A stretch of DNA of 9,592 nucleotides from Deltaproteobacteria bacterium RIFOXYA12_FULL_61_11 (GTDB taxonomy: Bacteria; Bdellovibrionota_F; JAHFAK01; YA12-FULL-61-11): contig MGSU01000202.1 in the NCBI GenBank assembly GCA_001799195.1, forward strand, positions 1 through 9,592, given 5' to 3'. Of this stretch, positions 1 through 9,592 are shown piece after piece; the stretch's first letter is position 1, and the number at the start of each line of letters is the position of its first letter. Position numbers and translations under genes: made by a program. The notes under the pieces are model-generated. The model was not told the origin of the DNA, did not search any database, and worked only from the letters and a program-made list of their open reading frames with translations.

Positions 1-174
1 GGTCTCCTCGACCACCGAGACCTTGACCCGGTTCTCGACTACGGCTCCACTGTTGCCATAGTAATTGTTAAGCCGCCGGGCGAAGGCGGTGTGTAAGCAC
101 AGCAAGAAACGCGAGAACTTCGCGACCGTCGAGATGCGGACTAGGAGGTGGGTATGATTTCCCATCAGGGCGAA
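1..174 (-). pseudogene. C-terminal half of a disrupted Y1 (IS200/RAYT-like HUH) transposase gene
   Basis: Read on the minus strand from 174 to 1, the frame is open and encodes FALMGNHTHLLV, followed by a stretch with FSRFL, HTAFARRLNNYYG and ENRVKV. The L-M-x-N-H-x-H-L-L string is the metal-binding HUH motif of Y1 transposases; here the middle residue is Thr rather than a hydrophobic one. The downstream pattern also fits the family. The catalytic tyrosine would lie beyond the left edge. The frame stays open upstream to an ATG at 237, with an in-frame TAG further up, but residues before the motif do not look like the family's N-terminus and are element sequence. The missing N-terminal half lies at 8533-8744 on the same strand, so the gene was split by insertion. 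The family call is confident; whether the truncated frame is expressed is unknown. Confidence 0.82.
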
Positions 175-177
175 TTC
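155..177 (+). other. attL: left copy of the imperfect 23-bp attachment repeat
   Basis: This stretch matches 8521-8543 in direct orientation at 18 of 23 positions. The longest identical run is AGGGCGAA (167-174), the likely crossover core. To the left lies transposase coding sequence (host); to the right lies element DNA leading to the integrase. On the minus strand the repeat covers the codons for FALMGNH of the transposase HUH motif. The exact crossover base cannot be fixed from one copy of the element. Confidence 0.75.
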
Positions 178-340
178 GGGATAATGCTTCCTGTATTGTC
201 CAAGTTCGTCCCCTATCTCTGCTTCTTTCAAGAGCATAGCAGAAGTACCTATCCGAGGCAATCCCAAAAAGACCCTAGACAAGCGACAAGCAAGGGGCTA
301 TCCTGGGGGCAATGTCACCAATGGAGGGATTTATTGCCCT
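178..340. other. Element left end, non-coding, with candidate integrase arm-type sites
   Basis: These 163 bp between attL and the integrase hold no convincing gene. TATCCGAGG (250-258) is followed at once by AATCCCAA (260-267). The same two words occur in inverted orientation and the same relative order in the right end (8388-8396 and 8372-8378), as expected for integrase arm sites on two att arms. A tandem GACAAGC GACAAGC lies at 278-291. GGAGGG at 323-328 is a possible ribosome binding site for the integrase. Confidence 0.4.
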
Positions 341-1597
341 ATGAAGCCCCCTAAGAAGTATCCCTACAAGAAGCGCGGAACCATGAAGCACAAGGCCCTG
401 AGCGATGCCACATTGAAAGGGGCGATGGGCAAGGCGAAACCCTACCGATTGCATGATGGTGATGGATTATTCGCCCAGGTATCCCCCCGAGGCGTGGTGA
501 GCTGGTGGGTAAAGTACCGGCGCGAGGGAAAGGATACCCGGCAAGGCCTGGGGCGATATCCTGCCGTAACGCTCCTAGAGGCCCGCAGGAAGGCCGAGGA
601 GCTGAGGATATGGGTTGCCCAAGGGAAGGACCCGAAAGCGTTGCAGCGTGCCCAGGAGGAGGCCGAGGAGGTGGCCAGGATCACCCTGGGCGAAGCATGT
701 GAATCCTTCCTCGAGCGCAAGCGGCCGAGTTGGAGGGCGAACACAACGGACGGAGCTGTGCGTTGCATTCGCCTGCTGCGTGACCTCAACAAGATGGAGC
801 TGGTCAAGATCACCCCCGAGCACCTGGTTGGCGTGTTCGAGAGGATCAATGCCCCGAGCATGAAAAGGCGATTGCATTCTCTGCTGGTAGGTATCCTGAA
901 CGATGCCGTTGACCGTGAACTGATACCCGGCAATCCTGCCCTACGAGGCAAGGTCAAGGCCGTGGTGCCTCATGGTTCAAGTAGGACCGTGGAACACCGA
1001 GCGGCCCTACTGGTGGAAGGTCGCTTCGGTGAGCTGTTGTTGTCCATACGGAACTACCCGAGCGCCACAACACGGCTGGCAATGGAGTTCTTGGCCCTGA
1101 CCGCGTTGCGGACCTCCGAGGTATTGGGCCTGCGCTGGAGTTGGTACGATAGACCGACCGGAAGCCTGGTCATTCCTGCCTTGCGAATGAAGATGAAAAC
1201 CCCTCACGTCGTTCCACTGAGCCGACAAGCGATTTCTTTGCTTGACGATGCCCACGCACTGAGCGGCTGGGGCGAGTTGGTATTCCCTGGCCGTACGATT
1301 GACAAGCCAATGGCTAGGGCAACAATGCGAATGGCCCTTCGTATTATGGGCTTCAAAGAAGAGGAAACCTGCATCCACGGTCTTCGAGGAACCTTCGCTT
1401 CTATGGCGACCGCCTCCGGCCTATGGTCTAGGGATGCCGTGGAGCTGGCCCTTGCCCATGCAGAGAGGAACGCTGTTCGAGCGGCCTACCAGCATTCGGA
1501 CCTGCTCCCCGAGCGCGCCCGACTGCTCCAATGGTGGGCTGACCGTTGCGACGCAATGAGGAACGAGGCCGATGGAAGGGCGAGAGGTGGAGCGTGA
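341..1597 (+). CDS. int: Tyrosine recombinase (P4-type integrase with N-terminal arm-binding domain)
   Basis: Catalyses site-specific integration and excision of the element through a phosphotyrosine intermediate. The 418-residue length is normal for P4-type integrases. Residues about 17-100 form the DUF4102-like arm-binding domain (DGDGLF, SWWVKYR, LGRYPAVTLLEAR). About 112-205 is the helical core-binding domain, and the C-terminal half is catalytic. All active-site residues are visible: R257 in TALRTSEV, K286 in MKMKTPHVVPL, H346 and R349 in IHGLR, H373 in LALAH, and nucleophile Y383 in AAYQHS. The protein therefore looks intact. Start 341 has GGAGGG at a long 12-base spacing; ATG at 383 (residue 15) is an alternative giving MKHKALSD, a common way for this family to begin. 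The gene lies 164 bp from attL and reads into the element. Such integrases usually target tRNA genes; this one appears to sit in a protein-coding motif. Confidence 0.95.
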   Translation: MKPPKKYPYKKRGTMKHKALSDATLKGAMGKAKPYRLHDGDGLFAQVSPRGVVSWWVKYRREGKDTRQGLGRYPAVTLLEARRKAEELRIWVAQGKDPKALQRAQEEAEEVARITLGEACESFLERKRPSWRANTTDGAVRCIRLLRDLNKMELVKITPEHLVGVFERINAPSMKRRLHSLLVGILNDAVDRELIPGNPALRGKVKAVVPHGSSRTVEHRAALLVEGRFGELLLSIRNYPSATTRLAMEFLALTALRTSEVLGLRWSWYDRPTGSLVIPALRMKMKTPHVVPLSRQAISLLDDAHALSGWGELVFPGRTIDKPMARATMRMALRIMGFKEEETCIHGLRGTFASMATASGLWSRDAVELALAHAERNAVRAAYQHSDLLPERARLLQWWADRCDAMRNEADGRARGGA

Positions 1598-1811
1598 ATC
1601 GGAACCCGACCCGCTGCTATTCGCTATTCCTGCTATTCGAGGCGACCTTGATTGAAAATTGAGATTCTTGGGGGCCAGTTCGAGAGTAGAGCGCTTGCGC
1701 GGTAGAAATGAAATCCGGGGTATGGAAGGGGGGTGTCAAGGGAAATGGGACCCATAACGTATGGCTACAAATGACCGTTGTTGTAAACGGCGCACTTATT
1801 GGAGGTGAACA
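1598..1811. other. Intergenic region with GCTATT cluster and a small dyad
   Basis: This 214-bp gap separates the integrase from the TTG-start gene. Besides the repeat cluster at 1614-1638 it contains a small inverted repeat, CCGTT-GTTGTA-AACGG (1775-1790), 21 bp before the start codon at 1812, which could be an operator. A clear promoter and terminator are not visible. A role as part of a replication origin is inference from the repeat cluster. Confidence 0.4.
1614..1638 (+). repeat. GCTATT iteron-like cluster A
   Basis: It consists of CTGCTATTC (1614-1622), GCTATTC (1623-1629) and CTGCTATTC (1630-1638). The whole 25-bp block recurs in inverted orientation at 6375-6399 with 23 of 25 bases identical, 4.7 kb away. 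Short direct repeats shared between two non-coding or weakly constrained sites of a replication-gene element suggest initiator binding sites. The function is inferred. Confidence 0.65.
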
Positions 1812-3128
1812 TTGAACCATTTGAAGGATCTCGAGGCGCTGGGTTTCGGCCCGCCTGATTGGGAAACCTGGCAAGAACGATTGAAAAGGCTCAACGATGG
1901 TTGCCTTGACCTGACCATGCAGGACCTCGCCCTGCTGCTCGCTGGATTGGAACCGGGGTGTGTGGTCAAGTGGCAATCGCTGCCGCTTGGTGTAGTTGCC
2001 CCTAGCGTGCTCGTGGAGGGAGCACCTACCCTGGTCGACCTCGTCTTCAATGTCGAGCTGCACGACAGCAATAACCCGCCGCGAAACGGATTACTTTCCT
2101 TCCTGCCGACCGATCCGACCCTGCCGACTGATCCGACCCTGCCGACTGATCCGACCCTGCCGACTGATCCGACCCTGCCGACTGATCCGACCCTGCCGAC
2201 CGATCCGACAATGGAAAATGAAATACAGGAAGTAGCGTTCTGTATGTCCGTGGCGCATCTTATCCAGGACAAACAAGCAAGAACAGGGGGAAAATCGCCT
2301 GCCCCTGCCCGAATATTGTTCCCATTGGTTGATCTTGCCCGGCGAAATCTCGATGCTCTGACCCGTGCCTTGCTGTCGGAATACCGCAACCATCCAGGTA
2401 TCGAGAGAAAAACATTCTTCTACAGCGAAGACGATCTTCGCACCTACCTGACCCGAGTTGCCGACCTTGAGAGCATGGTTGACTCGGTTGCAGCCGTGGC
2501 CGAAGGTTTGTTCCCTTTGCCGACTGTAGACCTATCGGCCCGGCCCACCTGGTCGAGGTGGCGCGGTCATGCCCTGAACGCTGCCGAACTGACCTTGCTG
2601 GTCCTGGGCTTCGATCCTGATGCCCCCAATATCAAGAGAATCTTGCTCGGCAATCCCGAAGGTACGGTCAATTCTTTGCTCTTTGACCTTCGACACCACC
2701 GAGCCGTGCAATATGATCGGCCACCAATCGGCCCGCTCAATGAGGAAGTACGCGACCGGCTTGCTCTGCTCGCCGACCTGCTCGAGTTGGTTGAAGGACG
2801 GTACCGAGCCCAAGGGTTGAAACTTGCCGAACCCAAGGTGGTTAAAGACCTCCTGACCGACTTGATAGAAACTCGACCGCTTGCGAGCACAACGGCCTTG
2901 ATAGCACTGCACGAGCTTTGCCCCGGCGCCCCCGACCCGAGGGAGGTGCGGAGTACCGAGCTTGCCCTTGCCCTGACCGTTGAGGCATACGAGCGCGCCA
3001 CGGCTCACCGTAAGGGTACATCGGTCCTGGTGTCGTCAATCATGAGAGCAGCACCCGGCCTGATAGACGAGGGAGCTTTGCGCAGAGCAATGAACCGTGC
3101 AAAGCATGCGCTAGAAAAGACTAGATAA
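1812..3128 (+). CDS. Unrecognised 438-residue element protein with six LPTDPT repeats
   Basis: I do not recognise this protein. The TTG start at 1812 is chosen because an excellent Shine-Dalgarno GGAGG (1801-1805) sits 6 bases upstream. Residues 1-97 form a Trp- and Leu-rich N-terminal part. Residues 98-133 are six perfect LPTDPT hexapeptides, probably a flexible linker. The rest is mostly helical in character, with no signal peptide or membrane segment. Two segments look alike: an N-terminal LTMQDLALLLAGLEPG and, around residues 247-271, WSRWRGHALNAAELTLLVLGFDPD. Both fit a loose W/L-rich pattern ending in G-x-[DE]-P that I associate with accessory-element proteins of unknown function; this is a weak resemblance. 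It ends 141 bp before the AlpA-like gene and has its own ribosome binding site, so it may be transcribed separately. A regulatory or replication-accessory role is possible but not shown. Confidence 0.8.
   Translation: MNHLKDLEALGFGPPDWETWQERLKRLNDGCLDLTMQDLALLLAGLEPGCVVKWQSLPLGVVAPSVLVEGAPTLVDLVFNVELHDSNNPPRNGLLSFLPTDPTLPTDPTLPTDPTLPTDPTLPTDPTLPTDPTMENEIQEVAFCMSVAHLIQDKQARTGGKSPAPARILFPLVDLARRNLDALTRALLSEYRNHPGIERKTFFYSEDDLRTYLTRVADLESMVDSVAAVAEGLFPLPTVDLSARPTWSRWRGHALNAAELTLLVLGFDPDAPNIKRILLGNPEGTVNSLLFDLRHHRAVQYDRPPIGPLNEEVRDRLALLADLLELVEGRYRAQGLKLAEPKVVKDLLTDLIETRPLASTTALIALHELCPGAPDPREVRSTELALALTVEAYERATAHRKGTSVLVSSIMRAAPGLIDEGALRRAMNRAKHALEKTR
2103..2210 (+). repeat. Six tandem 18-bp repeats, in frame
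   Basis: Units of CTGCCGACTGATCCGACC repeat six times without interruption; the first and last units carry C instead of T at the ninth base, and the last base of the array is A. Each unit encodes L-P-T-D-P-T. Within a unit there is a 9-bp sub-period sharing CCGAC. Because the unit is 18 bp, gain or loss of copies keeps the reading frame. No spacers occur, so this is not CRISPR. Confidence 0.95.
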
Positions 3129-3269
3129 TTCATACAGGTTGCAAGGTTCAATTTTCGCTTATCTTTTTCCCCTCTAAACCAACATATAATGCAATAGGTA
3201 TATTGCAACGTACGGCTCAGCATGGTACAACTAGGACCAGGTTGGACCCAAACATAAAGGAGCACTAGT
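3129..3269. other. Intergenic regulatory region before the alpA-replication operon
   Basis: The first part (3150-3180) is T-rich without a clear hairpin, so no terminator is claimed for the preceding gene. The second part holds a consensus -10 box and the TGCAATA/TATTGCA palindrome. A ribosome binding site AAGGAG (3257-3262) lies 7 bases before the ATG at 3270. Confidence 0.55.
3185..3207 (+). promoter_or_regulatory. Putative alpA operon promoter with overlapping palindromic operator
   Basis: TATAAT at 3185-3190 is a perfect -10 hexamer, but no good -35 box is visible at 16-18 bp spacing. The perfect inverted repeat TGCAATA-GGTA-TATTGCA (3190-3207) starts on the last base of that -10 box and covers the expected transcription start. 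A protein bound there would block transcription. The same half-site forms a second palindrome at 8412-8434 near attR. AlpA-like autoregulation is inferred. Confidence 0.55.
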
Positions 3270-3527
3270 ATGAGCACGTCGACACCCTCCCTTCTTCGCC
3301 TGCGGCAAGTGTTGGAGCGCACCGGCTTGAGCAGATCCTGTCTGTACGACAAAGTACAGCACGACCTTTCCCCGCAACCCTGCCGCATCAGCGAGCGCGC
3401 TTCTGCATGGTCTTCTGATGAGGTAGACCGTTGGATTGCAGAGCGTCTCGCTGAACGTGATACCAAGTTGGCCGAGAAACACGCCGCGAAGCCAACGCCT
3501 ACCCGTGGCAGGAGGGCCGGACAATGA
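3270..3527 (+). CDS. AlpA-like helix-turn-helix regulator / possible excisionase
   Basis: This 85-residue protein has the layout of AlpA/MerR-like winged-helix DNA-binding proteins of phage and P4-type elements. LLRLRQVLERTGLSRSCLYDKV (about residues 8-29) is the helix-turn-helix, followed by a short wing and WSSDEVDRWIAERLAER, the family's typical W-x-x-x-E-[IV]-x-x-W segment. The tail is basic (KPTPTRGRRAG). AlpA of CP4-57 activates excision by raising expression of the element's integrase, and relatives act as excisionases or repressors. The start has AAGGAG at 7 bases. The stop codon overlaps the next start (ATGA), so this is the first gene of the replication operon. Its likely target is the TGCAATA/TATTGCA palindrome in its own promoter and the copy by attR; that link is inference. 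Confidence 0.85.
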   Translation: MSTSTPSLLRLRQVLERTGLSRSCLYDKVQHDLSPQPCRISERASAWSSDEVDRWIAERLAERDTKLAEKHAAKPTPTRGRRAGQ

Positions 3528-3802
3528 AGACGCCAAGCATCAAAGAGCAGCTTTCAAAAGCGATTTCCTTTGGTGTGGTCCTTCCCCCCCTCATTGTCGC
3601 GAAATGCCCCGGTCTTCACTGCACGAGTGCGCTGCTAGCCGACGGATATACCGGCCACTGGGCTTGTCTTCGTTGCGGCATCCACGGTGACAGCCCTGTG
3701 TCATTGTTTCAGGCAGTTCACCGGGTCTCGCGTTCCGAAGCCGAGCTTGCGCTGGGGCTACCTGACAACAGCAATAATGGCACCGAGCGCGCTTTTACAT
3801 GA
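3524..3802 (+). CDS. Stand-alone CHC2-like primase zinc-finger protein
   Basis: A 92-residue protein that resembles the CHC2 zinc-binding domain found at the N-terminus of DnaG-type primases. Candidate ligands are C28 with H32 or C33 (KCPGLHC), then C48 and C51 in WACLRCGIHGD. The following segment GDSPVSLFQAVHRVSRSEAELAL matches the usual helix after the finger, G-D-x-[IV]-x-[FL]-V-x-x-x-x-x-[LV]-S-x-x-E-A. The first ligand spacing (x3 or x4) differs from the canonical C-x2-H, so the zinc site needs checking. It starts in an ATGA overlap with the AlpA-like gene and ends in an ATGA overlap with the Toprim gene. Translational coupling to a protein holding the catalytic Toprim domain suggests that the two act together in primer synthesis. 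A run of seven C occurs at 3584-3590. Confidence 0.7.
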   Translation: MKTPSIKEQLSKAISFGVVLPPLIVAKCPGLHCTSALLADGYTGHWACLRCGIHGDSPVSLFQAVHRVSRSEAELALGLPDNSNNGTERAFT

Positions 3803-6291
3803 TAGGGGGGGCCATGTATGAGAATCAAAAACCCGGCTGGGAAGCTCCCTCGCCGGGTCAATTACAAGCAAGGGAAGAATACAATGATTCTGAGGTGAAG
3901 GCAAAGTTCGCTGATCACTGCCGCGAACAAGGCCTTCAACTCAACGAGAGCGATATCATTGGCGACGGCAAAATTCATCGTTGTGGTACCGAGACACACC
4001 CCCAAGGAAAGAACGGCAGCTATCTTCTGCATCTTGATGGAGCTGTGCCCGCTGGCTGGTGTCGAGCCTGGGATAAGGGAGAGGGCGAAACCTGGCACCT
4101 TGACCTCGGCCGTCGGCTGACAGCCGCTGAGCAAGAGCACCTACGACGTCAACGTGAAATCGACACCTTGCAGCGCAAGCAAGAGACAGAGGCACGACAC
4201 AAAGAAGCCGCTGATAGAGCGAAAGTTCTATGGGGTAAAGCCCGCAATGCTACGGCAGAGCATCCTTACTTGCAACGGAAAGGCATTCTTCCTTACGACA
4301 CAAAGACCTGTGATGATGGGGCGTTGCTTGTTCCCTTGTACGGTTTTGATGATGATAAGAATGCTGTCCTGGTGAACCTACAGCGCATTTTTCCGAACGG
4401 GGACAAGCGCTTCCTTCCCGGCGGCAAGATCAAGGGAGTCTTCTGGTTCAATGAGGATCTAACCGATGCCTCGCGCATCGTTGTTTGCGAGGGTTTCGCC
4501 ACTGCCGCAAGCATCGCCGAGGCTACAGGCTACCAAGTATTCGCCGCAATGTCGTGCCATAACCTGCGCACCGTCGCGGAGGTGGTCAAGAATGCTTGGC
4601 CGAATAAGACGCTGATCATTGCTGCCGACAACGACCGGCGAACGAAAGGCAACCCCGGCCTGGGCTATGCCCAGGAGGCGGCCCGCGCAGTTGGGGCTCT
4701 GCTGGCCGTGCCTTCCTTTGAGGAAGATGAAGTCGGCAGCGACTTCAACGATCTTGCGACTTTGCGCGGCAAGGATGCGGTCAAGTCAGCAATCGAGACG
4801 GCGCCCCTTGTTCCAGAAGAACCCTGGGCCGAGTTGCACGACTTGACCGAGGACGAGAAACCTTGGCCATACCCCGTCGATGCGCTACCCGGCATTATCC
4901 GCGAGGCCGTTGAAGAGGTTGCGCGCTACTCGCAAGCACCCCTCGCAATGGTCGGAAGCTCTGCATTGGCGACCTGTGCGGCTGCCAGTCAGCACCTTGT
5001 TGACGTTGAACGTGCTCCCATGTTGCGCGGACCCGTGAGCTTGTACTTCCTGACCATTGCCGAAAGCGGGGAGAGGAAAAGCACCGTTGATGGATACTTT
5101 TCTCAACCTATCCGCCGATACGAAGCGTTGGAGGCTGAGCGGAACCGTGGAACGATGCTTGATTACAAAGCCCGAGAGGCTTCCTGGCAGGAGCAGAAAA
5201 GGGCAATCCTTGAACGGTTGCGAATGGCGCGTAGGAAAAGCGACTTCGGCAAGGTCAAGAGTGAAGAAGCAGACCTTCAAGCCCACGAGGCCAACGAGCC
5301 CGAGCGGCCCCGCGTACCCCGGCTGCTCATAACCGAAGAGTCATCGGAGAATCTCGGTTGGATATTGGCGCGCGACTGGCCTTCTATGGCCCTATTGTGC
5401 GCCGAAGGAGGCCTGGTACTAGGGGGCCACGCAATGCAGCGAGATCAGGTTACGCGAAATATCTCCATGTACGACGCACTATGGTCCGGCGAATCGATCC
5501 ACGTTGGGCGTCGAACGAGCGAAAGCTATACCATCGAAGGGGCGCGTCTATCCGTTCATCTTCAAGTTCAACCTGGTGTCTGGCAGCGCTTCCTTGAGCA
5601 AAGCGGCGACCTGGCCCGAAAGACCGGCATGCTTGCGAGGTTCCTGGTGAGCCAGCCCGCTTCAACCATTGGTTCGAGGCCCTACCGAGAGCCCCCGGTG
5701 TCATGGCCCGCATTGGAGCGATTGCAGAATCGTATTATCGAACTGCTCGACCAGAAGCCCAACCTCGACCGTGGTCGACTGCGGCCGGAGGTGCGCAAGC
5801 TCCAAGGCGAAGCTCTGCGCGAATGGCAAAAGGTTCACGATGTGTTCGAGTCTGATATGGCCAAGGGCAAGGACCTTGAGCACCTGCGAGATACCGGCAG
5901 CAAAGCGGCCGAACAGGTTGCCCGCCTAGCGGCTGTCCTGGCCCTTGTGGACAGATGCCCCGAGGTGGGAGTGGCCCACGTCCAGGGAGCGGCCCGCGTT
6001 GTCGCCTGGCATGGACATGAGGCTTCGAGGCTGTTTCGAGGGCGTACCCCCCTGACCGCCGCTGCCCTGGAGCTTGAAGGCTTCCTTATCCGACGTCGCC
6101 ACGACAAGGGCGAAACATCGTGCCGTATTACAACGGTTCAACAATGCGGCCCCGGTCGCCTGCGTGAAGGTTCCCGACTGCGCCCCGTGCTCGATCGACT
6201 CATTGCGGCAGGTAGAGTGCGCATTGTCGAGACACCCCACGGCAAGATGGTAGAGCTTCGCCCCGAGTTGGTTGATCATGTCGCTTCGTGA
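3799..6291 (+). CDS. Primase/helicase-like replication protein (Toprim plus DUF3987, YfjI-like)
   Basis: Probable replication protein of the element, 830 residues. Residues about 55-100 (GDGKIHR, NGSYLLHLDG, GWCRAWDKGEGETW) match the region before Toprim in P4-alpha/TraC-type primases. Residues about 225-320 are a Toprim domain, with E231 (VVCEGFATA), D277/D279 (AADND) and D315 (GSDFND) as probable metal ligands. Residues about 360-720 match DUF3987. A Walker A-like AESGERKST (421-429) has Arg before the Lys, as seen in this family, and LLITEES (509-515) may be Walker B. The C-terminal 100 residues look like a winged helix (RPVLDRLIAAGRVRIV). It probably primes and unwinds the excised circle. 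ATG at 3799 overlaps the previous stop; ATG at 3814 has a G-rich Shine-Dalgarno (AGGGGGGG) just upstream and may be the true start. Confidence 0.88.
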   Translation: MIGGAMYENQKPGWEAPSPGQLQAREEYNDSEVKAKFADHCREQGLQLNESDIIGDGKIHRCGTETHPQGKNGSYLLHLDGAVPAGWCRAWDKGEGETWHLDLGRRLTAAEQEHLRRQREIDTLQRKQETEARHKEAADRAKVLWGKARNATAEHPYLQRKGILPYDTKTCDDGALLVPLYGFDDDKNAVLVNLQRIFPNGDKRFLPGGKIKGVFWFNEDLTDASRIVVCEGFATAASIAEATGYQVFAAMSCHNLRTVAEVVKNAWPNKTLIIAADNDRRTKGNPGLGYAQEAARAVGALLAVPSFEEDEVGSDFNDLATLRGKDAVKSAIETAPLVPEEPWAELHDLTEDEKPWPYPVDALPGIIREAVEEVARYSQAPLAMVGSSALATCAAASQHLVDVERAPMLRGPVSLYFLTIAESGERKSTVDGYFSQPIRRYEALEAERNRGTMLDYKAREASWQEQKRAILERLRMARRKSDFGKVKSEEADLQAHEANEPERPRVPRLLITEESSENLGWILARDWPSMALLCAEGGLVLGGHAMQRDQVTRNISMYDALWSGESIHVGRRTSESYTIEGARLSVHLQVQPGVWQRFLEQSGDLARKTGMLARFLVSQPASTIGSRPYREPPVSWPALERLQNRIIELLDQKPNLDRGRLRPEVRKLQGEALREWQKVHDVFESDMAKGKDLEHLRDTGSKAAEQVARLAAVLALVDRCPEVGVAHVQGAARVVAWHGHEASRLFRGRTPLTAAALELEGFLIRRRHDKGETSCRITTVQQCGPGRLREGSRLRPVLDRLIAAGRVRIVETPHGKMVELRPELVDHVAS

Positions 6292-6685
6292 ACTTTACGA
6301 GAACTACGGGAAGCGAGTAGGCGCGGCTGCTATTTCTGCTATTCCTGCGGTTCCACAAGAAACGCATACCCTGGGAATAGCAGGAATAGCAAATAGCAAC
6401 GGGAGAGTACCCAGGGGCGACTTTACAACTACCAAGAATTATTATCCTTGTTCTTCGGCCACAGAACCGCTCGACCTGGAGGACCTCTATGAACATTTCC
6501 AAGAGAGGGTGGCCATAGTCGAGGAGGGAGGTCTATCCCGACAGGAAGCCGAACTTCTCGCGCTGAAGGAGCTGTTTCAAAGCCTTGGATACGAAAAATT
6601 CACGCATGACCAAGACGGCCTTGCGGTATCGCTCGCCCGAGCTGCTCGTCTGCTTCCCCCTCCGGGGGGTGATCATCCCTTCTGA
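6278..6685 (+). CDS. Small unrecognised ORF coupled to the replication gene
   Basis: A 135-residue protein starting at ATG 6278, overlapping the end of the replication gene by 14 bp; a TTG two codons upstream is a less likely start. The N-terminal 45 residues include AAISAIPAVPQ and GIAGIANSNG, which are simply the translation of the GCTATT repeats and their inverted copy, so this part is probably constrained by DNA function rather than protein function. Residues 65-100 (LDLEDLYEHFQERVAIVEEGGLSRQEAELLALKEL) are helical and resemble a motif often seen in short ORFs downstream of DUF3987 genes: E-R-x-A-I-x-E-x-x-G-[GL]-L-x-R-x-E-A-E. No enzymatic motif is visible. The end is Pro-rich (LLPPPGG). 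I cannot assign a function; a replication accessory is plausible from position. Confidence 0.7.
   Translation: MSLRELYENYGKRVGAAAISAIPAVPQETHTLGIAGIANSNGRVPRGDFTTTKNYYPCSSATEPLDLEDLYEHFQERVAIVEEGGLSRQEAELLALKELFQSLGYEKFTHDQDGLAVSLARAARLLPPPGGDHPF
6327..6399. repeat. GCTATT iteron-like cluster B, arranged as a long dyad
   Basis: Three direct 9-bp units, CTGCTATTT, CTGCTATTC and CTGCGGTTC, occupy 6327-6353. Inverted units GAATAGCAG (6375-6383), GAATAGCAA (6384-6392) and ATAGCAA (6393-6399) follow. Segment 6330-6345 pairs with 6374-6389 at 15 of 16 positions with a 28-base loop. Block 6375-6399 is the inverse of cluster A at 1614-1638 (23 of 25). The cluster lies within the coding sequence of the small ORF. 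A role as origin or initiator binding site is inferred. Confidence 0.65.
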
Positions 6686-6753
6686 AGGTCTGCTGGACCA
6701 ATCTTCCGACCCATGCCACACTGCACGCGGCAATGATGAAGAGGTGCGACGTC

Positions 6754-8229
6754 ATGACCGAGAATATTCGCTTGCCTCGAAAGAGGTTGTCGCTTGTACG
6801 ATTGGTCGCAATAGTGCTGCTTTCCAACCTGATAGTTCCGCAGGTTTGGACAGATACAAGTTCCGAATTGACGGTACCGACGACGGTGCCGGTCCCAACA
6901 CTGTCCAATGCCGACAAAGACCCCTCGACCGACACCGCACCACCAACAACAACGAGCACCGCGTCACTAGGGGCGTTTCAAGAAACGCTTGCGAAGGCAC
7001 AGAACAGTGACCCTACGGCCCAGTTCAACCTCGGGGTGATGTATTACGATGGTGAGGGTGTACCGCAGGATTATAAGAAAGCCTTCAAGTGGTTTACCAA
7101 AGCAGCGGAACAGGGACATGCAAATGCCCTAAGCTACCTCGGATGGATGTACGATAATGGCGAAGGAGTACCGCAGGACTACAAGAAAGCCATCGAGTGG
7201 TTCACAAAAGCAGCGGAACAGGGATATGCTGACTCTCAGAACAACCTTGGTCTGATGTACCTCCAAGGTAAAGAAATACCGCAGGACTACAAAAAAGCAG
7301 TTGAGTGGTTCACAAAAGCAGCGGAACAGGGGGCTGCTTCATCTCAATTCAGCCTTGGTCTGATGTATCTCGAAGGTAAAGGAGTACCGCAGGACTATAG
7401 GAAAGCCATCGAGTGGTTTACCAAAGCAGCGGAACAGGGACATGCTGACTCTCAGCACAACCTCGGGGTGATGTACGATAATGGCGAAGGAGTACCGCAG
7501 GACTATAGGAAAGCCATCGAGTGGTTCACAAAAGCAGCGGAACAGGGACTTGCATTAGCTCAACTCCAACTTGGTCTGATGTACCACCAAGGTAAAGAAA
7601 TACCGCAGGACTACAAAAAAGCAGTTGAGTGGTTCACAAAAGCAGCGGAACAGGGAGCTGTAGACGCCCAGTACAACCTCGGGGTGATGTACCATAAAGG
7701 CAAAGGAGTACCGCAGGACTATAGGAAAGCCATCGAGTGGTTCACAAAAGCAGCGGAACAGGGAGCTGTTAGTGCCCAGTTCAACCTCGGGGTGATGTAT
7801 GTGAAGGGCGAAGGTGTACCGCAGGACTATAGGAAAGCCATCGAGTGGTATTCCAAGGCTGCGGAACAGGGACATGATGCAGCTCAGTACTCCCTCGGGT
7901 TGATGTACAACAACGGTGAGGGTGTACCGCAGGATTTTAAGAAAGCTGTCGAGTGGTACGCCAAGGCTGCAGAACAAGGGGATATGGGAGCGCTGAATAA
8001 CCTCGGGGTGATGTATGTGAAGGGCGAAGGTGTACCGCAAGACTATCGACAAGCATATTTCTATTACAATCTCAGTGCTGCCCTATCGACAACGAATGAA
8101 GATAGAACTCTTGCCGAAAAAAATCGTGACGGTATTGCCCAGAAACTGACAAAAGAAGACCTAGCTGCAGAACAGAAGCGGGCTCGGGAATGGTTCGAAC
8201 GCTTCCAAGCGAAAGAGAAAAAACCCTAA
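6754..8229 (+). CDS. Secreted or periplasmic Sel1-repeat protein (cargo)
   Basis: It contains ten Sel1-type repeats of 36 residues (7009-8088), consensus A-x-x-Q-x-N-L-G-V-M-Y-x-x-G-x-G-V-P-Q-D-Y-K-K-A-x-E-W-F-T-K-A-A-E-Q-G. These are TPR-like alpha-alpha hairpins that stack into a superhelix for protein binding; the family has no enzymatic activity of its own. ATG 6754 is preferred because GAGG (6741-6744) lies 9 bases upstream; an ATG at 6733 has no good site. From 6754 the protein begins MTENIRLPRKRLSLVRLVAIVLLSNL, a basic n-region and hydrophobic core typical of a signal peptide. A Thr/Pro-rich linker then precedes the repeats. The C-terminal tail is charged (AEQKRAREWFERFQAKEKK). It is less GC-rich than its neighbours and not needed for element movement, so it is probably cargo. 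Its partner and benefit to the host are unknown. Confidence 0.88.
   Translation: MTENIRLPRKRLSLVRLVAIVLLSNLIVPQVWTDTSSELTVPTTVPVPTLSNADKDPSTDTAPPTTTSTASLGAFQETLAKAQNSDPTAQFNLGVMYYDGEGVPQDYKKAFKWFTKAAEQGHANALSYLGWMYDNGEGVPQDYKKAIEWFTKAAEQGYADSQNNLGLMYLQGKEIPQDYKKAVEWFTKAAEQGAASSQFSLGLMYLEGKGVPQDYRKAIEWFTKAAEQGHADSQHNLGVMYDNGEGVPQDYRKAIEWFTKAAEQGLALAQLQLGLMYHQGKEIPQDYKKAVEWFTKAAEQGAVDAQYNLGVMYHKGKGVPQDYRKAIEWFTKAAEQGAVSAQFNLGVMYVKGEGVPQDYRKAIEWYSKAAEQGHDAAQYSLGLMYNNGEGVPQDFKKAVEWYAKAAEQGDMGALNNLGVMYVKGEGVPQDYRQAYFYYNLSAALSTTNEDRTLAEKNRDGIAQKLTKEDLAAEQKRAREWFERFQAKEKKP
7009..8088 (+). repeat. Ten 108-bp repeats encoding Sel1 units
   Basis: Units of exactly 108 bp follow each other without gaps; the tenth is degenerate in its second half (RQAYFYYNLSAAL). 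Units 2-3-4 resemble units 5-6-7 more than their direct neighbours. For example, units 3 and 6 share GKEIPQDYKKAVEWFTKAAE with almost the same bases, 324 bp apart. This points to duplication of a three-unit block. Confidence 0.9.
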
Positions 8230-8520
8230 CCAATCAACAATCGCATCCTTTAACCGGCTGATTTATGTTGCTGCATTAGCACCGGCGCTGGAAATGCGCC
8301 TTAGGTGGTTCTTCGACTATCGGTATTCGATGACATCGGCAGGGAAAAAGAGAAATGCTTTCCTTTGCCGATTGGGATACTAGACACCCTCGGATACCTA
8401 GAGATTACAGCATATTGCAAAATTCCTGCAATATCCTAAACTTGGAAATTAGGGGCAATAAATGGGGGCAAAGTTATAGGAGTGAAAATATATCATGCTG
8501 GATTGCATGAGTATTTTCTT
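8230..8520. other. Element right end, non-coding
   Basis: This stretch of about 290 bp holds no convincing gene on the + strand. It contains an imperfect dyad around 8254-8285 and a GGCGC/GCGCC hairpin (8284-8300), neither followed by a T run. There is a further imperfect dyad CGGCA-x-GGAAA / TTTCC-xx-TGCCG (8337-8370). Candidate integrase arm words TTGGGAT (8372-8378) and CCTCGGATA (8388-8396) follow. Last come the TATTGCA palindrome (8412-8434) and a small palindrome TCATGC-TGGATT-GCATGA (8493-8510), 10 bp before attR. The density of dyads fits a recombination arm. Confidence 0.5.
8412..8434. promoter_or_regulatory. TATTGCA palindrome near attR (possible excisionase site)
   Basis: ATATTGCA (8412-8419), a 7-bp spacer and TGCAATAT (8427-8434) form a perfect 8-bp inverted repeat. 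The half-site is the same as in the palindrome at the alpA promoter (3190-3207), though the half-sites face the opposite way and the spacing differs. It lies 86 bp inside attR, where excisionase sites are commonly found. Binding by the AlpA-like protein is inferred. Confidence 0.5.
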
Positions 8521-8744
8521 TGATTATCCAGAAGGGCGAAGTCCACTAATTTGATATCATACTGCTTTTTGTACTTCGCCACGAGTTCCAGATACAGTTC
8601 TTTGAGGCTGTCGTTCTCGAGAAGGTACTGTTTGACGTGATTCGTGCAGTGCCAATACATATGCAGCAACGCGCCGTCCGAGCATTGGAGATGTCGTGGG
8701 ACTCTCGCATTCATGATCGCAGGGTATAGCAGTATTGGGGCCAC
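8493..8744 (-). pseudogene. N-terminal half of the disrupted Y1 transposase gene
   Basis: This minus-strand frame begins at GTG 8744 or, more likely, ATG 8714. It encodes a Y1-transposase N-terminus: ALLHMYWHCTNHVKQYLLEN, then SLKELYLELVAKYKKQYDIKLVDFAL, as in family members that read H-V-x-x-R-x-x-N-R, a long helix, then I-x-L-x-x-[YF]-x-L-M. At the point where M-x-N-H-x-H should follow, the sequence instead reads LDNQRKYSCNPA and stops at 8495-8493. The last residues come from element DNA right of the crossover. The native part is 8533-8744; the rest of the gene is at 174-1. The HUH motif is absent, so this fragment cannot be an active transposase. An intact copy would include the catalytic Tyr beyond the left edge. 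Confidence 0.8.
8521..8543 (+). other. attR: right copy of the imperfect 23-bp attachment repeat
   Basis: This is a direct repeat of 155-177 (18 of 23), with AGGGCGAA at 8533-8540. To its right lies N-terminal transposase coding sequence; to its left lies element DNA. The reading frame of the transposase has the same phase relative to the core in both copies (TTC codon at 174-172 and at 8540-8538). Confidence 0.75.
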
Positions 8745-8861: not shown

Positions 8862-8898
8862 CTTGCAAACAATAGCGTCATGCGCTAGTTTTTGCAAG
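8862..8898 (+). promoter_or_regulatory. Palindromic operator upstream of the AbiEi-type gene
   Basis: CTTGCAAACAATAGCG (8862-8877) and CGCTAGTTTTTGCAAG (8883-8898) form an inverted repeat with 14 of 16 positions matching and a 5-bp spacer TCATG. It ends 29 bp before the ATG at 8928. AbiEi antitoxins are known to bind inverted repeats in their promoter and repress the operon, so this is the likely autoregulatory operator. I cannot assign -35 and -10 boxes with confidence. Confidence 0.65.
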
Positions 8899-8927
8899 CG
8901 CGTTGCACAGTCGCGCAGGAGCATAGC

Positions 8928-9592
8928 ATGTCAGCAAAATCCGCCATGGCGCACTGGATCGAGCAGCTCCAGTCCAGGGGCCGCTACACCTTCACACGTG
9001 CCCAGGCGGAGTCCGACACCGAGCGTTCCTTCGTAGCGGCGCAGACCGCGCTGCGACGGCTGAAGCAGCAGGGTCGAGTAGTCTCGCCCCGGCGCGGGTT
9101 CTACGTGGTGGTCCCACCCGAGTATCGGGCCGCGGGTGCGCTACCGGCGAGCTGGTTCATCGACGACCTGATGCGGTACCTCGACCAGCCCTACTACGTC
9201 GGGCTCCTGAGCGCAGCCGCCATCCACGGCGCCGGGCATCAGCAGCCGATGGTGTTCCAGGTGGTGACCAGCAAGCCGACCCGCGAGATGCGCGCCGGCA
9301 AGGTGGCCATCCGGTTCACGATGAGCGGCCTGGTGGAGAGCTTGCCCGTGGTCGAGCAGCAGACCGAAACTGGGACCATGCGCGTCGCCGCTCCTGAGAC
9401 CTGCGCCTTCGACCTAGTTCGATATCCGGAGGCGGCCGGTCACCTGAGCAACGCGGCCACGGTGCTCGCCGAGCTGGCCGAGCGTCTCGACGCTCGCACA
9501 CTCGTGGACGTCGCGCCTCTCGTCCGGCTTCCAGACGTGCAGCGCCTCGGGTTCTTGCTCGACGCCGTCGGGCAGAGCGAGCTCTCTACGCC
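8928..9592 (+). CDS. abiEi: AbiEi-type antitoxin (type IV toxin-antitoxin), partial at right edge
   Basis: Open frame of 221 codons running off the window. ATG 8928 has AGGAG (8918-8922) close upstream. The first 60 residues form a winged helix-turn-helix (YTFTRAQAESDTERSFVAAQTALRRLKQQGRVVSPRRGFYVVVP), as in AbiEi/COG5340 proteins. The middle carries the family's hallmark segment (YYVGLLSAAAIHGAGHQQPMVFQVVTSKP, then R in IRF) and APETCAFDLVRYPEAAGHLSNAATVLAELAE, where family members read P-E-x-T-x-x-D-L. AbiEi represses its operon and counteracts the AbiEii nucleotidyltransferase toxin, whose gene would be expected just beyond the right edge. The gene lies outside the element, with GC-rich third positions. 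It reads divergently from the broken transposase gene. Confidence 0.88.
   Translation, partial: MSAKSAMAHWIEQLQSRGRYTFTRAQAESDTERSFVAAQTALRRLKQQGRVVSPRRGFYVVVPPEYRAAGALPASWFIDDLMRYLDQPYYVGLLSAAAIHGAGHQQPMVFQVVTSKPTREMRAGKVAIRFTMSGLVESLPVVEQQTETGTMRVAAPETCAFDLVRYPEAAGHLSNAATVLAELAERLDARTLVDVAPLVRLPDVQRLGFLLDAVGQSELST

Follow-up and report, generated by a model that had tools for sequence, protein, structure and literature searches.

A P4-family integrase element inserted within one of several IS200-like Y1 transposase genes

Introduction

How does an integrative element come to lie inside the gene of another mobile element, and does a conserved motif of that gene serve as its address? Most known sites of P4-family integrases are tRNA and tmRNA genes, and the locus described here, in which the pieces of a Y1 transposase gene flank such an integrase, raises both questions. 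We analyzed a stretch of 9,592 bp (the window), which covers nearly the whole of the 10,002-base contig C202, part of a MAG of 4.64 Mb in 342 contigs that is 87% complete. The assembly is fragmented, the window contig ends inside the interrupted Y1 gene, and the host phylum is represented by two genomes in the collection searched. No tRNA gene was found in the window.

An earlier note on this DNA had proposed that the Y1 gene is interrupted by a tyrosine-recombinase element, with a short core common to both edges, and that removal of the element in silico restores the reading frame; both points held up. It is very probable that an element of ~8.4 kb with a P4-family integrase recombined its attP with a 7–8 bp core inside one Y1 copy. 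The most fitting view of the site is that it depends on the DNA of this particular copy rather than on the Y1 family overall.

The Interrupted Gene

The two cores (Table 1) both read AGGGCGAA, which is the longest word common to the edges compared (101–260 against 8401–8700). When the flanks are spliced at this word, a single open minus-strand frame runs through KLVDFALMGNHTHLLV. The spliced product of 116 aa scores 33.9 bits against the Y1_Tnp profile (PF01797; cut-off 23), and neither half passes alone, the C-half reaching 15.3 bits and the N-half giving no score. Uninterrupted homologues that span the junction were also sought, and four paralogues (C295, C194, C5, and C341) were found in the same genome, with 85–89% amino acid identity to the joined product over 116 residues and 77–81% DNA identity. 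At the DNA level, the N-half is 79–82% and the C-half 81–86% identical to these same four copies; both halves therefore come from one subfamily, and the possibility raised earlier that they match different transposase subfamilies can be set aside.

The interrupted gene is IS200-like and is one of several copies in the genome. Its paralogues score 27.9–29.3 bits against the REP-associated tyrosine transposase model NF047646, below the curated 80, and in the profile comparison they also fall below the curated IS200 models. The interrupted copy is readable to residue 116 only, because the contig starts there; the conserved candidate for the catalytic Tyr, Y126 of the paralogues, belongs to the region beyond the contig start.

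The position of the break deserves some care. The earlier note placed the attachment site in the codons of the HUH motif; the core word instead spans F59-A60-L61, and 10 nt separate its end from the downstream CAT codon for the first His of HTH, so that the crossover lies in the F-A-L codons. The HUH codons are not split and lie whole on the C-terminal side. With that correction, comparison at the sequence level confirms the insertion of a mobile element within a Y1 transposase gene as real, precise, and site-specific. One case is known, and the MAG that holds it is fragmented. The predicted empty site after removal of the element is ...GTGGACTTCGCCCTGATGGGAAATCAT..., and the matches to the interrupted locus seen elsewhere are paralogues only, none of them an empty form of the very same locus. 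One might also suspect that the element supplies a replacement for the 5' part of the gene, since the frame stays open for ~43 codons into the element; this length is allowed by chance, and the idea was rejected.

Attachment Sites and Core

The rebuilt attP, ATTATCCAGAA-GGGCGAA-TTCGGGATAAT, has 11-bp arms that are inverted at 10/11 positions around a 7-bp spacer, a symmetry equaled by 0/20,000 random element positions in the same scan. The predicted circular junction is ...ATTATCCAGAAGGGCGAATTCGGGATAAT.... A segment of 7 bp is typical of strand exchange by tyrosine integrases (PMC10111431), and the attP predicted here has the architecture expected of a tyrosine-recombinase core site.

The arms of attB, on the other hand, lack inverted symmetry (6/11) and agree unequally with attP: 9/14 in the P arm versus 4/14 in the other, with no more than 7/14 in the P arm at the 22 further places where the genome DNA examined contains the core word. 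The P arm also resembles the Y1 copies, at 7–10 of 14 positions (shuffle P of 0.0016 for the mean and 0.005 for the best, values that are optimistic because related Y1 copies were counted as independent and the arm was spotted before being tested). For the other attP arm, the agreement with the Y1 copies is 4/14 or less. Translated together, the attP arm and core give FALLDNQ, to be compared with FALMGNH or FALMDNH in the Y1 genes. A tRNA-derived attP was looked for as well; among the 30 of 36 host tRNA loci compared, the best match (18/27) was at shuffle level.

Gene Content of the Element

The genes lie between the two AGGGCGAA copies, ~8.4 kb apart, and are listed in Table 1 together with the attachment sites and the two pieces of the transposase gene.

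Table 1. Features of the window, with the basis on which each was assigned
Feature	Position (bp)	Strand	Basis or remark
C-terminal-side piece of interrupted Y1 gene, FALMGNHTHLLV...VVEET	1–174	−	Cut by contig start
attL core AGGGCGAA	167–174	+	Shared-word and core comparison; spacer proper GGGCGAA, 168–174
P' core arm TTCGGGATAAT	175–185	+	Arm comparison; inverted copy (10/11) of 8523–8533
P4-family tyrosine integrase (PF13356 + PF00589)	341–1597	+	Pfam, alignment; start may be ATG at 383
438-aa ORF, function not recognized	1812–3128	+	TTG start; contains in-frame 18-bp tandem array, 2102–2209
AlpA-like regulator, candidate recombination directionality factor (PF05930)	3270–3527	+	Pfam
92-aa ORF, possible primase zinc finger	3524–3802	+	Resemblance of C/H pattern; no database match
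Toprim + DUF3987 primase-helicase, likely the element's replication protein	3799–6291	+	Domain matches
137-aa ORF without known domain	6272–6685	+	Repeats 6328–6403 inside
Sel1-repeat protein, ~10 repeats, probable cargo	6733–8229	+	Pfam, repeats
P core arm ATTATCCAGAA	8523–8533	+	Arm comparison; complement runs on as CTTCTGGATAATCA, resembling Y1 motif DNA
attR core AGGGCGAA	8533–8540	+	Shared-word and core comparison; spacer proper GGGCGAA, 8534–8540
N-terminal piece of interrupted Y1 gene, MNARVPRHLQ...KLVDFAL	8533–8714	−	Frame, paralogue match

The integrase possesses both an arm-binding and a catalytic domain, the latter with the full R-K-H-R-H-Y set; in an alignment with eight relatives, R257, K284, H346-x-x-R349, H373, and Y383 are invariant. 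It is 34% identical to P4 Int, and its arm domain matches CP4-like integrase structures. The integrase and the primase are each single-copy in the genome, and no relatives of the primase were found in viral contigs. Three of the ORFs have no known domain, and a Pfam scan of eight ORFs returned no relaxase, terminase, or capsid domain above cut-off. Taken together, the gene content would suit a satellite resembling P4 or the PICIs, or else a cryptic integrative element.

Repeats were noted as well. The tandem array in the 438-aa ORF consists of six units and encodes a repeated DPTLPT. The Sel1-repeat protein has 108-bp repeats, and its hydrophobic N-terminus may be a signal peptide. Copies of GCTATTCCTGCTATTC, both direct and inverted, are found at 1610–1638, 6328–6353, and 6375–6403; they form 29-bp arms, 93% complementary across a distance of 4.7 kb, together with a local hairpin, and are candidates for an origin or for regulatory sites.

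Proposed Mechanism

We propose that the circular form of the element, by way of the attP given above, would recombine with the matching 7–8 bp core in one IS200-like Y1 copy, with integrase cuts at either end of the 7-bp spacer, and would thereby split the gene between the first strand/helix region and the HUH strand. The AlpA-like protein would help excision, which would rejoin the transposase frame, and replication of the excised circle would fall to the Toprim-DUF3987 protein. The further suggestion of the earlier note, that insertion may act as an on/off switch for the transposase, is speculation, and other intact Y1 copies exist.

Choice of Target

The earlier note reasoned that a motif conserved across many Y1 copies could give one element many landing sites. 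The 8-bp core is, however, absent from every paralogue when these are read in register (3–7 of 8). The best matches, at 7/8, are C5 (TTCGCaCT) and C56 (TgCGCCCT), followed at 6/8 by C295 (TaTGCCCT), C194 (TTTGCgCT), C341 (TaCGCgCT), and C141; the remaining copies match at 3–5/8, and the MDNH subfamily at 3–6 of 8. As judged from these alignments, the core is conserved in protein but not in DNA. Integrases usually demand spacer identity, which conservation of the motif at the protein level does not provide; the idea of many landing sites is thus not supported.

What do the relatives of the integrase use? The closest are ~34–37% identical to it and relatives overall span 29–37%, with no homologue above ~37% in 290 genomes, genome contigs, viral contigs, plasmids, and phages. 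Six relatives of a first set adjoin genes for tRNA-Leu, -Phe, -Thr, and -Met and two tmRNA genes, and of a further 80 from viral contigs, eight have a tRNA in the available flank; wherever a target was recognizable, it was a tRNA or tmRNA gene. No Y1 gene was found near the integrase at any of 91 such loci with a local profile that does recover the two pieces in the window, a weak negative, as trimming to the provirus has left many of the loci with no host flank. The genome itself holds a second P4-type integrase (L064, contig C24), 29% identical to that of the window, which adjoins a tRNA-Met gene and hence shows the usual arrangement.

These results bear on the idea that the element targets something other than a tRNA gene. 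The idea is plausible because attP has no tRNA match and one of its arms resembles the Y1 family. The integrase relatives, for their part, were located at tRNA and tmRNA genes; homologues at unrelated sites, which the earlier note had named as evidence against its reading, are what we found, at 29–37% identity. It should be kept in mind that similarity in a core arm is expected at any usable integrase site, be it usual or secondary.

Whether the Y1 copy is the usual target is a finer question within the explanation that we prefer, and the confidences in the two overlap. There is a sizable, though less than even, chance that the insertion is at a secondary site, that is, that the usual attB (a tRNA or other gene) was absent or occupied and the Y1 copy, with its matching 7-bp spacer, served as a fallback. 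The single instance, the poor match of one attB arm, and the 91 loci of relatives, none in a Y1 gene and all those with a recognizable target at tRNA or tmRNA genes, are in keeping with this, as is the precedent of ICEBs1, for which secondary integration sites are documented and costly (PMC3715440). On the opposing side, the assembled genome offers no alternative attB within three mismatches of the attP core, attP lacks a tRNA fragment, and one of its arms is Y1-family-like.

A bolder proposal is that a P4-like lineage has moved from tRNA genes to the conserved Y1 strand, its attP adapting to the motif, so that a selfish gene present in many copies offers it a cheap place to land, with a transposase that becomes active again only on excision. 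We consider this unlikely. Dedicated targeting of the HUH region of Y1 genes, with several usable copies per genome, is quite unlikely; the FALLDNQ reading noted above, so near to its Y1 counterparts, would fit it, but the paralogues lack the core in register, and there is one insertion only, neither the integrase nor the primase having a second genomic copy.

Two explanations would dispense with the integrase or with the insertion altogether. An assembly chimera between repeated Y1 copies might be suspected, as many contigs of this MAG end in Y1 copies, yet such a chimera is very improbable since it would not yield an in-frame, in-register 8-bp duplication centered on inverted arms. The pattern would equally fit DDE transposition, with 11-bp terminal inverted repeats and a 7-bp target duplication, which is most improbable given that a Pfam scan of the main ORFs found no DDE transposase domain and that an integrase with all its catalytic residues sits beside one end. 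Recombination by that integrase at the core of one Y1 copy accounts best for the locus.

Comparison with Known Systems

The kind of element and the mechanism are known; the kind of target is new, and the insertion is unusual. Satellite phage P4 and P4-like elements share with the element described here the integrase family, an AlpA-type gene, a primase-helicase, and an int gene that reads away from the att site. They differ in that the primase of the window is of the Toprim-DUF3987 type, and in that the recognizable targets of the relatives are tRNA and tmRNA genes, whereas here the target is a protein gene and no replacement sequence was recognized. Integration at tRNA or tmRNA genes, usual but not obligatory in the P4 family, is thus a feature that this element does not share.

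Helper-embedded PICIs, which sit in prophage late genes without replacement, a state that the authors call regulated gene integrity (PMC10111431), are similar in being small, in carrying int, AlpA, and primase genes, and in lying without replacement inside a gene of another mobile element that excision would restore. Their targets are prophage late genes, unlike the Y1 transposase gene found here, and their attP has a doubled TGTATTGC motif, as against the single imperfect TGTATTGT seen by eye in the attP of the window. In the IME_oriT elements, of which 64 are known, the target is the oriT of an ICE and a relaxase is present (PMC7563843). These, too, are tyrosine-integrase elements that attach at a functional sequence belonging to another mobile element, but here that sequence is a transposase coding region, in one case, and no relaxase domain was found.

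In the open-access literature we found no paper describing a Y1 transposase gene that holds a tyrosine-recombinase element. Prophage late genes and oriT sites are the cases described so far in which a mobile element has another mobile gene as its address. Should such an insertion recur elsewhere, it would show how integrase specificity moves to protein-coding sites, and it gives a simple test case for the reactivation of a transposase upon excision.

Neighboring Genes and Other Y1 Copies

An AbiEi-type antitoxin gene (8892–9590) adjoins the interrupted transposase. After the end of the window there is a run of N (a scaffold gap or masked stretch), followed by a frame on L107 that may be an AbiEii-like partner.

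Other broken Y1 copies were considered as insertions and rejected. The C56 copy (L045:2860–3660) belongs to the same subfamily, and its C-terminal end lies ~740 bp further on, with a dispersed repeat between; it is broken 10–13 nt downstream of the point used here, by a different rearrangement. In C41, C80, C134, C150, and C309, the breaks near the motif fall at contig ends and possibly result from Y1 repetition. The dispersed repeat, GCATCCTGCGCGTCGCTTGGAGG, is found for example at L045:2411–2469, 3207–3265, and 3850–3908, several copies being near Y1 genes or contig ends. A 23-bp word of this repeat has 48 genomic matches at ≤3 mismatches (reversed control, 0), some of them near Y1 genes, and the repeat may represent a REP-like family, with these Y1 proteins serving it.
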